From positions 1 to 39,759 of IMG/VR virus record IMGVR_UViG_3300013006_000063: a DNA stretch of 39,759 nt; one strand, written 5' to 3'. This document shows, piece by piece, positions 3,881 to 34,085 of the stretch. The position numbers and the translations under genes are program-made. Source of the DNA: a virus. The notes below the pieces were generated by a model, which saw only the letters and a program-made list of their open reading frames with translations, was not told where the DNA came from and did not search any database. Numbering within the stretch: the stretch's first letter is position 1; each line of letters starts with the position of its first letter.

Positions 3881-4807
3881 TTAATTAGAATCCGCAGTAT
3901 TAGTAAATGCAAATATATTATATCGTCTTGTCATTGAAGGTAAGTTTGTAGTTACAGTATTATAATCTTCCTTGATGTAAAATTTTTCAGAATCAATTAA
4001 TAAAGATACTGTTCTATATGAATCATAATTTAATGCTTGAATATAATTACTATTAGTTAAAACTTCTCTGGTATCTATATCTACCATTATTGCTGCAGGA
4101 GGATATCCTAAATTGTGATAAGCAACCGTAGTAATTGTGTTACCCAAATTTCCAGCACTAACATTAGCATAATTATGAGTAAATGAAAATTGAGATTCTA
4201 CACTAATATACTTAAAACGAGAATCAAGGTAAATATTACTTAAATTATTAAATCTATCAGTTAATGGTTTACTATTACCTTCTTCTCTCGCAGGATTATT
4301 AAAAATAGATACTACTGCTACATTAGCAACATTGCCTGCCCAAAAAACATTTGTTCCCTGATTGGTATCTATAACAGGAGCAGGGCCACCTGCGCCAAAA
4401 TTTTCTAAACTTTCAATCAACGTATTGTAAATGAATAGATGAAAAGTTTCGGTGTGCGCAACACCCACCATTTTTTGATTTTCATGAGTATGATAAAGCC
4501 CATAATAAGCTTGCCCATTCACATACCCCACTAGTTCACCTGAGCTAGTGGGTGCTCCGCCCCCTCCTCCTGTGTAAGAGATAGTGGCCGGACTACCCCC
4601 TCCTGTGTAATAACCAGAGCCAGGACTAGGAGTGGGGCTAGGACTAGGAGTGGGGCTAGGACTAGGAGTGGGGCTAGGACTAGGAGTGGGGCTAGGACTA
4701 GGGCTCGGACTAGGACTAGGAGTGGGGCTAGGACTAGGGCTCGGACTAGGGCTCGGACTAGGGCTCGGACTAGGGCTCGGACTCGGACTAGGACTATGAT
4801 AACTCAT
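3881..4807 (-). CDS. Tail fibre protein with N-terminal Ser/Thr-Pro repeat stalk
   Basis: A 308-residue protein. Residues about 5-62 are almost pure (SP)n and (TP)(SP)n dipeptides, coded by a tandem minisatellite. A glycine-rich linker follows (GSGYYTGGGSPATISYTGGGG). Then comes a block with histidine pairs (YGLYHTHENQKMVGVAHTETFHL, about residues 105-127), a layout seen in fibre proteins of aquatic T4-like phages. The C-terminal ~170 residues are a beta-rich domain ending FAFTNTADSN. Pro-Ser repeats should form an extended stiff rod, so this could be a hinge or stalk for a distal domain. The start ATG overlaps the stop of the upstream fibre gene by 4 bases. Confidence 0.65.
   Translation of the reverse strand: MSYHSPSPSPSPSPSPSPSPSPSPSPSPTPSPSPSPSPSPTPSPSPTPSPSPTPSPSPTPSPGSGYYTGGGSPATISYTGGGGGAPTSSGELVGYVNGQAYYGLYHTHENQKMVGVAHTETFHLFIYNTLIESLENFGAGGPAPVIDTNQGTNVFWAGNVANVAVVSIFNNPAREEGNSKPLTDRFNNLSNIYLDSRFKYISVESQFSFTHNYANVSAGNLGNTITTVAYHNLGYPPAAIMVDIDTREVLTNSNYIQALNYDSYRTVSLLIDSEKFYIKEDYNTVTTNLPSMTRRYNIFAFTNTADSN
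4623..4796. repeat. Minisatellite of 18-bp and 12-bp units coding Ser/Thr-Pro repeats
   Basis: On the plus strand the 18-bp unit ggactaggagtggggcta occurs four times back to back (4623-4694) and once more at 4713-4730. The 12-bp unit ggactagggctc occurs once at 4695-4706 and four times back to back at 4731-4778. All units are multiples of 3, so gain or loss keeps the reading frame of the fibre gene. Both units share the core ggacta and interleave, which suggests repeated slippage or unequal recombination. The tract is far more GC-rich than its surroundings. Confidence 0.95.
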
Positions 4808-31079: not shown

Positions 31080-31775
31080 TTAAACAATTTCAGGAAACAA
31101 ACAGTCTTGAATAAACACCTGTACGTCTTCTTCTGAAAGTCCTAAACTAACCATAACTTTGGGTGTATGTGGATTTTTCTTTTGATTCTCACAATAGAAG
31201 TTTTGTGATTCTGAGGTGTTGTTGGTAGTGTTATTAGTTTCTGCAACTGTTTTCAAGTAATGATTAACTAGGATATGTGCGAAGCTTGTAAGTTGCGTTA
31301 ATTCGTTTTCGTCACTGACATTACCCGCGGCAACCATGTGTTCGCTGAAGATGAGTTCTGCCCACTCTGGTAGTTTGCGCTTTTTATTCCATTCATAGCG
31401 ACCAACTTCTTCACCAAAGTACTCTATCATAGGATGTTCCATATCACCTGTTGGACTATAATCAATAAAACAACCAGTGATCTTGTTCTTGCCCGCAATA
31501 ACATCAAATCCAAAAATAGGCGCAGGATTGTGGGTATGAGGAAATACACAACAATGCATCATCCAAAGACCCTTGGTTTCTCTGGCATCAACAACATCAA
31601 CGTGTGCCCTGCGATAAGATTCGCTGGTCCAAACACGATTAACCCAACCTGGCTGATTAAATCTATTCATGCCTGGTTCAAATACTTCTTTACCTGTTGC
31701 ATTGAAACTTTTTTCTAATAGATGTTGTATTTCTATTAAAGTATCCCATACCCTACTCTGTTGAATTTCAATCAT
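31080..31775 (-). CDS. pcyX: Ferredoxin-dependent bilin reductase, PcyX-like
   Basis: A 231-residue protein of the HY2/FDBR family (PcyA: ~248). It has AHVDVV (D60), MMHCCVFP (H74), IFGFDVIAG (D91) and the C-terminal pattern QNFYCENQKKN...T...LGLSEEDVQVFIQDCLFPEI. Aligning by eye with PcyA, H74 and D91 match catalytic His88 and Asp105, while PcyA Glu76, needed for the 18-vinyl reduction, is Asp60. That change is what I recall for the phage enzyme PcyX, which makes phycoerythrobilin rather than phycocyanobilin. The enzyme takes electrons from ferredoxin and uses biliverdin. Its start overlaps the heme oxygenase gene by 8 bases. The exact product is not provable from sequence. Confidence 0.85.
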   Translation of the reverse strand: MIEIQQSRVWDTLIEIQHLLEKSFNATGKEVFEPGMNRFNQPGWVNRVWTSESYRRAHVDVVDARETKGLWMMHCCVFPHTHNPAPIFGFDVIAGKNKITGCFIDYSPTGDMEHPMIEYFGEEVGRYEWNKKRKLPEWAELIFSEHMVAAGNVSDENELTQLTSFAHILVNHYLKTVAETNNTTNNTSESQNFYCENQKKNPHTPKVMVSLGLSEEDVQVFIQDCLFPEIV

Positions 31776-32304
31776 TGTAATCTTTTATCATCTCAATATT
31801 ATGTTTAAATGCTATAATAGATTCATCTGCTAAAGATATATCTAATTTAGACCTTACTGCTCTCACAAGTGACGGGATATCCTCAAACTTATACAAATGA
31901 CCGTTGCCGGGAGTTAACTTAGCCAGTTGTTGTCCTCCGAACATATCTCCCATGTGTCTGACATATACATGGGCCAATAACTTCTTAGGATCATCTTTAA
32001 TACTATCTAAATATTGTAGATATCTAAGAGTGGACTCGTTGATTGTAAATACAGTAGTACCGATATCCTCACAAAGTTCCATCCAATCTTTTTGCACGGC
32101 ATCTGCTCTTTTAAGATTTTCTATTCCCTCAAATAAAGCATGGTTGTTAGATAATATTTCCATCAGACCATATACATGAGTTAATTGATATATGTAACTT
32201 GTGTATTTGCCTTTATCTACATTACCAGCAAATACGGATTTTATAAATGGCTGAGATTCTGCTTCTGCATGGACATCAGCTGTCAATTCTTTTAATGTGC
32301 TCAA
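31768..32304 (-). CDS. ho1: Heme oxygenase
   Basis: A 178-residue helical protein of the biliverdin-forming heme oxygenase family, a little shorter than cyanobacterial HO1 (~240). The proximal heme ligand is H12 in LTADVHAEAESQPFIKSVF. The distal helix motif is GDMFGGQ (residues 119-125, family GD(L/M)SGGQ), preceded by AHVYVRHM. It opens heme to biliverdin, CO and iron using ferredoxin, and so supplies substrate to the reductase encoded directly after it. It overlaps both neighbours (4 and 8 bases), so the three genes form one operon. The family's main catalytic residues are present. Confidence 0.93.
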   Translation of the reverse strand: MSTLKELTADVHAEAESQPFIKSVFAGNVDKGKYTSYIYQLTHVYGLMEILSNNHALFEGIENLKRADAVQKDWMELCEDIGTTVFTINESTLRYLQYLDSIKDDPKKLLAHVYVRHMGDMFGGQQLAKLTPGNGHLYKFEDIPSLVRAVRSKLDISLADESIIAFKHNIEMIKDYND

Positions 32305-32978
32305 TTTGTTTTCCTTGAATTTGCAGCTGTGCCAATATATGGTCTATGATCCCATTTATAGTCACGGTAATTGCCGTTCTTATCCACATAGTGTAAAAAT
32401 GCCTGTGTTTGTCTTTGACCTAGATATGCGTCACGCCAATGGCTTAACGTATCACCTTTATAAACAATAAGGTCACCCGGATATAAGTAGATTGCCTTTT
32501 TCTCACCAGTTAAAGTCTCGAACCAAATTTCCCATGGTTCTTCATCGATAGAAATATTAATAGTTGAGGAAAATTGGCAACTTGGTCTATCTTTATGTAT
32601 AGCCATTGTTGCACCATTGTAATATATCCTGGCGTATGTGTATGTGGGATATAACTTCTTACCTGTTATCTCTTCCATGAGAGGTTGAAGTTGAATAGAT
32701 AATGCTTCGAACGGCAAAGCGGAATAGTAAGAAAAACTGTTGGGTATTTGGCTATCATTAAATGCAAATTTATCATCTTCACTTTTTCCGTTTGCCATGT
32801 ATTGTAATTTGCGCAATAACTCAAACTCTAAATCTAGATGTACAAGTTGGGATTCAGGAAGTACACCTCGTACAACCTCATATAAATCTGTAGCAAAACT
32901 CGCTTCATCTGATATTGCTAGTTCGCCTAGACCATTTACATCTGCGAATACAAACTTATCATCTGTTTTTGTTTTCAT
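32301..32978 (-). CDS. 2-oxoglutarate/Fe(II)-dependent oxygenase
   Basis: A 225-residue protein with the prolyl-4-hydroxylase-like double-stranded beta-helix. Iron ligands are H128-x-D130 (AIHKDRPSCQFSSTI) and H180 (DTLSHWRD). R189 (GQRQTQAFLHYV) is the 2-oxoglutarate ligand, and LYPGDLIVYKGD precedes the distal His. Enzymes of this type are frequent in T4-like aquatic phages, and their substrates are mostly unknown. It is the first gene of the unit that continues with heme oxygenase and bilin reductase (4-base overlap), so a link to the bilin pathway is possible but unproven. Confidence 0.9.
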   Translation of the reverse strand: MKTKTDDKFVFADVNGLGELAISDEASFATDLYEVVRGVLPESQLVHLDLEFELLRKLQYMANGKSEDDKFAFNDSQIPNSFSYYSALPFEALSIQLQPLMEEITGKKLYPTYTYARIYYNGATMAIHKDRPSCQFSSTINISIDEEPWEIWFETLTGEKKAIYLYPGDLIVYKGDTLSHWRDAYLGQRQTQAFLHYVDKNGNYRDYKWDHRPYIGTAANSRKTN

Positions 32979-33036: not shown

Positions 33037-33582
33037 TTAGAATCCGCGTGTATATGCGAAGCCAACAACCTTTTGGTTGCTATCACCCTTAACACGGTCA
33101 TACTTAGCAGTAATAGTATCGACTTTGCTCAAAGCATAAGACAATGCATAACGTGCTGTTTGAGTTTGGTCATTGTTCTGTGAACCATTAAAGGCCGAAC
33201 GGAAACGATAACCAACTTTAGCTGTCACACCAGAAAGACCTGGAACTGCTGCAGCAATACCTGGCTCAACTGAATAATATGCGAAGTCTGTAGTATTAGA
33301 ATACTTTTGACCCACAGCAGTGCGAGCATACAATCCAATAGGACCGTTAACTGTTGCGCCTGCTTCTAAGCGTGTGCTCAAAGCACTAGTGCCTTCTGTT
33401 TGTGCATTTGCAAAAGATACATCGCCAGCAAAGCCGCCGAAGTCTTTCTTAACGCCTAAAACATATTGCTGTTGAGCTGCTGCACCTGCATTGTTGATAT
33501 GTTGCGCTTCTAAAGTAACGCTATCTGCTGCATATGCAAAACCGCTTACTGCAACTAATGTTGCAATTGCTAACTTTTTCAT
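33037..33582 (-). CDS. Outer-membrane beta-barrel protein with signal peptide
   Basis: A 181-residue protein with a clean signal peptide (MKKLAIATLVAVSGFAYA, cut likely before ADS at about 19). Alternating hydrophobic strands follow (YVLGVKKDF, FAGDVSFANAQ, STRLEAGATVN, IGLYARTAVGQKY, FAYYSVEPGIAAAV, GVTAKVGYRFRS, ARYALSYALSKV, TITAKYDRVKG, KVVGFAYTRGF). The protein ends in an aromatic residue (F), the mark for outer-membrane assembly. About eight strands fit a small OmpA/opacity-type barrel. It is less AT-rich and uses more GCA/GCT-Ala than its neighbours, suggesting transfer from a bacterial host. Roles could be envelope change or receptor masking; none is proven. AAGGAG precedes the ATG. 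Confidence 0.8.
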   Translation of the reverse strand: MKKLAIATLVAVSGFAYAADSVTLEAQHINNAGAAAQQQYVLGVKKDFGGFAGDVSFANAQTEGTSALSTRLEAGATVNGPIGLYARTAVGQKYSNTTDFAYYSVEPGIAAAVPGLSGVTAKVGYRFRSAFNGSQNNDQTQTARYALSYALSKVDTITAKYDRVKGDSNQKVVGFAYTRGF

Positions 33583-33607
33583 AAAACTCCTTTTTAAATT
33601 TAAAAAT

Positions 33608-33638
33608 GGTTGGTTATTCTGTTACGAGGAAACCAACC
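33608..33638 (-). terminator. Hairpin at the 3' end of the tmRNA unit
   Basis: An 8-bp stem GGTTGGTT/AACCAACC with a 15-base loop, followed on the minus strand by ATTTTTA. It may be both the last helix of the coding piece and a transcription stop before the barrel gene, whose ribosome site begins about 15 bases later. Confidence 0.6.
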
Positions 33639-33655
33639 GAAACCCTAAGCAGTGT

Positions 33656-33688
33656 TTAGGCTGCTAATGCGAACTGTTCGTCGTTTGC
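33656..33688 (-). other. tmRNA tag reading frame, ANDEQFALAA
   Basis: GCA AAC GAC GAA CAG TTC GCA TTA GCA GCC TAA codes ANDEQFALAA and a stop. The resume codon GCA follows the conserved context CGTAAAC. The stop lies inside helix H5 (CCTAA/TTAGG, 33,660-33,656 with 33,648-33,644), as in standard tmRNA. The ALAA end is the ClpXP/ClpAP recognition type. Confidence 0.95.
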
Positions 33689-33772
33689 GTTTACGTTGTT
33701 TTAGTTTTAACATCTACTCTGATGTGCTGTCCACTCTGTTACTCTTTGCCCTGTCGAATCTAGGTCAGCCCC

Positions 33773-33839
33773 ATCAAAAGTACATAATCCCCGCTAGAGC
33801 CCTAAGAGGTTTCTTTCATCTAGGACAACTATGTACTTA
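33773..33839 (-). other. Intervening spacer of the permuted tmRNA precursor
   Basis: 67 bases separate the CCA end of the acceptor piece from the 5' G of the coding piece. A perfect 9-bp helix, AAGTACATA (33,838-33,830) with TATGTACTT (33,786-33,778), would sit on top of the acceptor stem and place both processing sites next to each other, as expected for maturation by RNase P at the 5' end and 3' trimming. Confidence 0.88.
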
Positions 33840-33906
33840 TGGTGGAGCTGGGGGGATTCGCACCCCCGTCCAGAACACTTTTCTCTTTGCTTCATACAGC
33901 AATAAA

Positions 33907-34041
33907 TTATTTGCCTTGGCCTCTGTACTTTTTAAAACTACTTCTTCTAGTTTTATTCATAGTACTCGTTTTAGGTCTACTGCCACCTTGACAGGTGCGC
34001 TTACTAACACTGTGACCTTTTGTATTTCTACCTAATGCCAT
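33907..34041 (-). CDS. Small basic 44-residue protein directly before the tmRNA
   Basis: ATG at 34,041 is preceded by AAGGAG at 7 bases. The frame codes MALGRNTKGHSVSKRTCQGG, then SRPKTSTMNKTRRSSFKKYR and GQGK, and stops at 33,907. It is strongly basic, with many Lys, Arg, Ser, Thr and Gly and one Cys, like a small ribosomal or RNA-binding protein. I do not recognise the family with certainty. It shares the promoter of the tmRNA, and its stop lies only a few bases before the acceptor piece. Use of the tmRNA leader as a coding region, or a function in RNA handling or ribosome binding, are both possible. Confidence 0.7.
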   Translation of the reverse strand: MALGRNTKGHSVSKRTCQGGSRPKTSTMNKTRRSSFKKYRGQGK

Positions 34042-34056
34042 AATCTAACTCCTTAT

Positions 34057-34085
34057 ATTATATATGAATTACTAATAAAAATCAA
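34057..34085 (-). promoter_or_regulatory. Sigma70 promoter for the small ORF and tmRNA
   Basis: The minus strand reads TTGATT (34,085-34,080), a 17-base spacer and a perfect TATAAT (34,062-34,057). The start site should lie near 34,050, just before the AAGGAG of the 44-residue ORF. Confidence 0.85.

Follow-up and report, generated by a model that had tools for sequence, protein, structure and literature searches.

A conserved, exchangeable RNA element in the linker of a permuted tmRNA gene of a T4-like phage

The stretch of DNA analysed here (the window) is 39,759 nucleotides long, and IMG/VR virus record IMGVR_UViG_3300013006_000063 consists solely of it; the virus is a lake-type bacteriophage. 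The T4-like context proposed in a first-pass annotation is borne out by genes for gp32, gp59, gp33, baseplate and tail-tube proteins, PhoH and DNA ligase, and the baseplate gp6 is closest to those of Melnitz, BUCT-ZZ01, Mosig and HTVC008M (~35% identity). A permuted tmRNA gene, delimited by Rfam, ARAGORN and sequence, lies at 33901-33606 on the minus strand. The genes upstream of it on the same strand, in the order of transcription, encode PhoH, an endolysin, a MazG-like protein, a PD-(D/E)XK nuclease and a 44-aa basic ORF (33907..34041, minus strand; phrog_17967, E 0.00055). The last of these is directly upstream of the tmRNA, does not overlap the mature RNA, and has a comparable short ORF near the Melnitz tmRNA. 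A candidate sigma-70-like promoter (TTGATT-17-TATAAT, 34057..34085, minus strand; 10/12 consensus positions) is located upstream of both the 44-aa ORF and the tmRNA, in a scan that was weak overall, with 6 promoter-like sites versus 3.5 (sd 2.3) in shuffles. Downstream, again on the same strand, are a 181-aa membrane-protein-like ORF, an oxygenase-like ORF, and genes for heme oxygenase, bilin reductase, gp33, gp59 and gp32.

The 181-aa ORF (33037..33582, minus strand), directly downstream of the tmRNA, has a signal-peptide-like start and matched nothing in Pfam, PHROGs or INPHARED. Relatives were found in 38 IMG/VR contigs at 71-100% identity, and in lake contigs they are phage-borne. A Burkholderiales origin or host was considered on the basis of this ORF and rejected, as there was one marginal match in 200 Burkholderiales genomes and one in 299 Pseudomonadota (E 9.1e-4 and 5.9e-4), both within much longer frames. 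The tag ANDEQFALAA was likewise rejected as an indicator of host: 17 bacterial-genome contigs encode it, 16 of them in one-piece genes, and the sole permuted case, L057, is phage-like. That contig (CAIMTR010000195.1), binned as a gammaproteobacterial MAG, carries its permuted tmRNA together with seven tRNAs in what looks like a phage tRNA array, and tmRNA databases built from MAGs may list phage genes of this kind as bacterial. Elsewhere in the window, a heme oxygenase gene sits beside that of a ferredoxin-dependent bilin reductase of the PcyA/PcyX type (31080-32304, minus strand), with the Mosig pair as nearest relative (50% identity); such pairs are already known in aquatic phages (PMC11480375). 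An ORF immediately preceding the heme oxygenase gene (32301-32978, minus strand) is labelled ferrochelatase by PHROGs; its sole Pfam match, to 2OG-Fe(II) oxygenase, is weak and falls short of the cut-off. Among the tail genes, an ORF at 3881-4807 (minus strand) encodes a protein that begins with a long Ser-Pro repeat (SPSPSPSPTP...).

The first-pass annotation had claimed a permuted, two-piece tmRNA and had proposed Infernal searches with the permuted Rfam models. In cmscan runs at Rfam gathering thresholds, RF04321 (tmRNA_permuted) matched 33901-33656 on the minus strand over model positions 1-213 of 213 (131.5 bits, cut-off 47, E 1.1e-25), and RF01850 (beta_tmRNA) matched 33949-33595 over the full model (131.4 bits, cut-off 84, E 5.4e-40). 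The latter is the top-scoring of the older clade-specific tmRNA models and was kept as clan best. ARAGORN, which is independent of Rfam, calls a permuted tmRNA at 33932-33565 (minus strand) with the tag ANDEQFALAA. These two full-length matches, both above cut-off, and the ARAGORN call uphold the claim.

The acceptor piece (33840..33901, minus strand, as are all parts below) was delimited from the RF04321 alignment, ARAGORN and sequence, and has a putative mature 5' end. It comprises an outer H2 strand UGCUG (33901-33897), an inner H2 strand UGUUCUG (33877-33871), the T arm (33867-33851), the acceptor 3' strand CAGCUCC (33850-33844) and an encoded ACCA whose last base is 33840. A 67-nt linker between the halves (33773..33839) is predicted to be removed from the mature RNA. 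The coding piece (33606..33772; Rfam, ARAGORN, sequence) has a putative 3' end and comprises the acceptor 5' strand GGGGCUG (33772-33766), the inner H2 strand CAGGGCA (33753-33747), the outer H2 strand CAGCA (33729-33725) and the tag frame ANDEQFALAA, closed by UAA (33656..33688; ARAGORN, sequence) and followed by H5. Read from the sequence, the ends given earlier for the CCA (33840) and the coding piece (33772) are correct to the base, and all of the parts listed then, namely a 7-bp acceptor stem, T arm, two H2 pairings, tag frame and H5, are present; the span of 33606-33905 given for the gene covers nearly, though not quite, the whole RNA.

The acceptor stem GGGGCUG/CAGCUCC forms seven pairs, of which the third is G-U, the alanine identity position recognised by alanyl-tRNA synthetase. 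The T stem is GGGGG/CCCCC with a UGCGAAU loop, and the two pieces are joined through the H2 pairings CAGGGCA/UGUUCUG and UGCUG/CAGCA, although the middle pairs that the Rfam model draws are largely non-standard in the window. The predicted fold is more stable than 100/100 shuffles (z -3.2). In relatives, acceptor pair 5 is C-G, G-C or A-U with pairing maintained, and most of those found have an open tag frame with an ending of the ALAA type. It is very improbable that the phage RNA acts as a decoy, competing with host tmRNA or inhibiting it, or that the gene is a captured one in decay: the window has an intact tag, G-U identity pair, acceptor stem and H2, and compensatory changes preserve the acceptor stem across many phages. 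What speaks for such a role is a report that a tag-less phage tmRNA-like RNA of DS6A inhibits endogenous tmRNA (PMC11915505), together with a few odd relatives such as L074, which has a 5-residue tag call.

The implied novelty of a permuted tmRNA in a T4-like phage does not stand, as Buchholz et al. 2022 described such a two-piece gene in Melnitz, a T4-like Methylophilales myophage (PMC9004378). The same study found permuted tmRNA in 17/47 related contigs, counted two-piece forms as 53 of 133 distinct phage tmRNA structures, with 50 from aquatic phages, and listed Mosig among the phages having both a tmRNA and a riboswitch. Rescue and redirected-degradation roles during infection were also proposed there, and ribosome rescue or redirected degradation is a plausible role for the present gene. 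Further permuted tmRNAs are present in IMG/VR (46 stretches from one pattern), where they also adjoin genes related to that for the PD-(D/E)XK nuclease and to the 181-aa ORF. ARAGORN additionally calls permuted tmRNAs in Synechococcus phage BUCT-ZZ01 (L004, 7783-8201) and Xanthomonas phage Rb1 (L005, 4972-5400), both absent from the record annotations.

Placement in a tmRNA tree with host genes had been suggested as a check. In our trees of the mature parts, which rest on ~210 columns, the window clusters exclusively with genes from phages, and with L069 and L070 in particular (support of 98 in one tree and 100/97 in another). The permuted form is usually credited to independent origins, a view from later reviews, and the many phage genes let one ask whether phages moved it between bacterial groups. 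Six Burkholderiales permuted tmRNAs fall among the phage permuted genes and are separated from almost every one-piece tmRNA from that order. This would fit a scenario in which betaproteobacteria acquired the permuted form from phages of the window's group and did not evolve it independently. We consider this transfer possible but rather doubtful. A clade of the six beta permuted genes with beta one-piece genes is compatible with the data (AU p 0.343, not rejected), leaving phages as the source suggested by the tree without AU support; the alignment is short and lacks cyanobacterial genes, and shared structure could attract permuted genes to each other in the tree.

Mosaic arrangements were also encountered. 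At L078 4060-4360, and in L081, L082, L281, L293 and L295, there is an apparent chimeric permuted tmRNA missed by ARAGORN, in which the T arm (GGGGGCAGUGCCC in L078) and coding-piece start are of alphaproteobacterial type, and the linker and H5 resemble those of the window's relatives. On this reading, phage tmRNAs look mosaic.

The most unusual part of the gene is its linker element, which the first-pass annotation overlooked. The 67-nt linker folds as a stem that extends the acceptor stem, and within it lies what we call the type A element (33777-33839, minus strand), composed of an outer stem and the core UAGAUGAAAGAAACC-UCUUA-GGGCUCUA. It is separated from the predicted RNase P site by UGAU, and the window linker scores 89.7 bits with model R1. 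The interior of the stem is near-identical across aligned relatives despite their differing tmRNA bodies. The pattern TAGATGAAAGAAACC-(4 to 12 nt)-GGGCTCTA has matches in 70 IMG/VR contigs, and in the loci examined CCACCA is found just upstream of it in 75/77 occurrences, the window being counted twice (also as L001). One of the two remaining occurrences is truncated by the contig end (L309); in the other (L314) the element directly abuts the end of a tRNA-Thr gene that precedes it. A looser pattern was discarded, as its extra matches lacked CCA or tmRNA context and resembled coding sequence. INPHARED gave no significant type A match.

Stem positions 2-9 are paired in all 36 distinct type A linkers, with changes such as C-G to U-A. 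Across the structure, 97.2% of cells are paired versus 28-52% in slid controls, and 35 cells are changed on both sides versus 9.5 in shuffles. Wobble cells on the transcribed strand are 69 G-U versus 3 A-C. The linker carries a conserved, covarying RNA element and is not filler.

Two further element types were recognised. Type B, which consists of CG, a hairpin and AGAGACAUAAGAAACRUG within a stem, occupies the slot of type A in other tmRNAs. Its cells are 97.4% paired versus 23-55% in slid controls, covariation is strong in two helices (29 cells changed on both sides versus 9.1 in shuffles), and wobble cells are 6 G-U versus 3 A-C. Type M (AUGGUCCUAGAUGAAGGAAAUU) was found in phage tmRNAs that are mostly of alpha type, among them the tmRNA of the isolate Mosig, and has GUCCUAGAUGAARGAAA in common with type A. 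Searches with models R1 and R2, each over 249 Pseudomonadota genomes, gave no matches, in a set for which there is no positive control. In several long linkers (L163, L314 and L003, which is Melnitz) short open frames were read by eye, for example MKSPLVKEVSKWMFKAYIVWSICADITLLAGIIYLVFF in L163 and MSSDTRFVIILAICLMWAYTVAFL in L314, and small genes may also be accommodated in the linker.

Bodies of tmRNAs that are 97-99% identical have different linkers, as with type A in the window and type B in L070, and type A bodies averaging 68% identity have linkers that are 84% alike. Because near-identical tmRNAs differ in their element and tmRNAs about 68% alike share one, the linker is exchanged as a module. 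Among 68 unique phage permuted tmRNAs sampled regardless of linker, 10/68 carry type A or B and 58/68 carry none of A, B or M; since most lack all three, a two-piece tmRNA does not require the element. In phage tRNA arrays, types A and B were found next to tRNAs as well. Type B is located just before tRNA-Gly in L363, between tRNA-Glu and tRNA-Val in L368 and L380, after tRNA-Thr in L375, and ~200 nt before a tRNA-Thr in L376.

Such cassette-like swapping between near-identical tmRNAs, and the presence of the elements at several kinds of site, are also what would be expected of mobile DNA hairpins or recombination sites that landed in tmRNA linkers and tRNA spacers, with the RNA structure incidental. 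We consider this improbable. The elements are in the sense orientation in all tmRNA and tRNA contexts read, and the transcribed strand of type A tolerates G-U but hardly any A-C, for which reasons an RNA structure formed by the transcribed strand is favoured over mobile DNA. Moreover, the stems carry compensatory changes and the element starts exactly at the base after CCA.

The best explanation, in which we have considerable though not complete confidence, is a functional two-piece tmRNA whose linker hairpin serves end maturation or protection. RNase P generates the 5' end of tmRNA and other nucleases the CCA end, and rescue requires SmpB. For transcription, processing, rescue activity and linker function in the present case, we infer the following course. 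Transcription would yield a single precursor in which the acceptor piece comes first, then the linker and then the coding piece; RNase P would cut before G33772, and 3'-end maturation would free the CCA at 33840. The linker would then be discarded, and the pieces would remain paired through the acceptor stem and H2. Charged with alanine, the tmRNA would act with host SmpB to rescue stalled ribosomes in the infected cell and append ANDEQFALAA. The use of host machinery is assumed, the window itself carrying no SmpB gene. Before its removal, the linker hairpin would extend the acceptor stem, keep the ends together and present the conserved core, which would aid precise release or protect the RNA ends. 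Types A, B and M would be equivalent, interchangeable solutions to the presentation or protection of RNA ends. Removal of the linker in permuted tmRNA probably involves RNase P and tRNase Z (PMC3985003). Both this removal and the role of the linker are little studied, and the conserved core, compensatory stems and cassette-like exchange make that role testable.

One observation runs against a maturation hairpin: type M also occurs after the end of a gp32-like gene in L404 and L408, where no tRNA end is matured. In both contigs (L404 near 1258, L408 near 5694) the type M hairpin has a different, fully paired GC-rich stem, is preceded by a gene ending in ...DDEDDTMNYFSKLVND (gp32-like C terminus), and is directly followed by TATAAATAG, a T4-like late promoter motif. 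The elements could instead act in their own right, as a ligand sensor, a self-cleaving RNA or a protein-binding hairpin that controls the level of tmRNA or tRNA maturation, which we regard as a minority possibility. That they lie next to tRNAs and behind gp32, and not in tmRNA alone, suits this reading. So does the far greater conservation of unpaired core nucleotides than of stems, although core identity is partly built in, types A and B having been gathered by exact core patterns. The Melnitz tmRNA is already tied to a riboswitch, though one downstream of the gene. On the other side, the type A stretch has no Rfam family of its own, the type B stretches tested matched none, and neither type matches an Rfam ribozyme or riboswitch. 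A glutamine riboswitch such as that near Melnitz was rejected for the linker: RF01739/RF01704 matched neither the window in Rfam searches nor the linker at E up to 10, and the Melnitz riboswitch is itself outside the linker. A hammerhead-like reading of CUAGAUGA..GAAA was also discarded, as by eye the strands misfit the hammerhead arrangement and Rfam gave no match. We retain the maturation or protection hairpin as the preferred reading. More tentatively, we suggest a joint proposition: that in aquatic phages interchangeable RNA modules A, B and M actively govern tmRNA or tRNA maturation or stability, possibly by self-processing or by recruiting a factor of phage or host, and that this set of modules, placed between permuted tmRNA halves, beside tRNAs and after gp32, is previously undescribed in the open-licence PMC literature.

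Several known systems can be set beside the window. Melnitz is likewise a T4-like phage with a permuted gene in the neighbourhood PhoH/PD-(D/E)XK/tmRNA/gp33/gp59. Its tmRNA is of alphaproteobacterial type (RF01849, 106.7 bits, T loop GGCAGUA), whereas that of the window is beta-type (RF01850); its linker differs from the window linker, and it has a glutamine riboswitch downstream of the tmRNA where the window has no Rfam riboswitch. The Pelagibacter phage Mosig (MT647606) is also T4-like and permuted with the same neighbourhood, and shares the heme oxygenase/bilin reductase pair, although in Mosig this is located elsewhere in the genome. The type M core GUCCUAGAUGAAGGAAA, near in sequence to the start of type A, is present in the Mosig linker, and its best older tmRNA model is alpha_tmRNA (67.6 bits) with the tag GEDNFALAA, as opposed to the beta-type gene and ANDEQFALAA of the window. 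Beta permuted tmRNAs (RF01850) have the UUCGACAGGG and GUUCUGGAC signatures in common with the window, but the T loop is UUCGAUU or UUCAAUU in the beta genes examined and UGCGAAU in the window, and the type A linker was seen in no Pseudomonadota genome searched. In circularly permuted tRNAs the intervening sequences span 1-74 nt, the review concerned mentions no conserved element in them, and the halves are re-ligated (PMC3978253), unlike the pieces of tmRNA. Permuted tmRNA itself is known, and the novelty of the phage gene lies in its conserved, cassette-like linker element.
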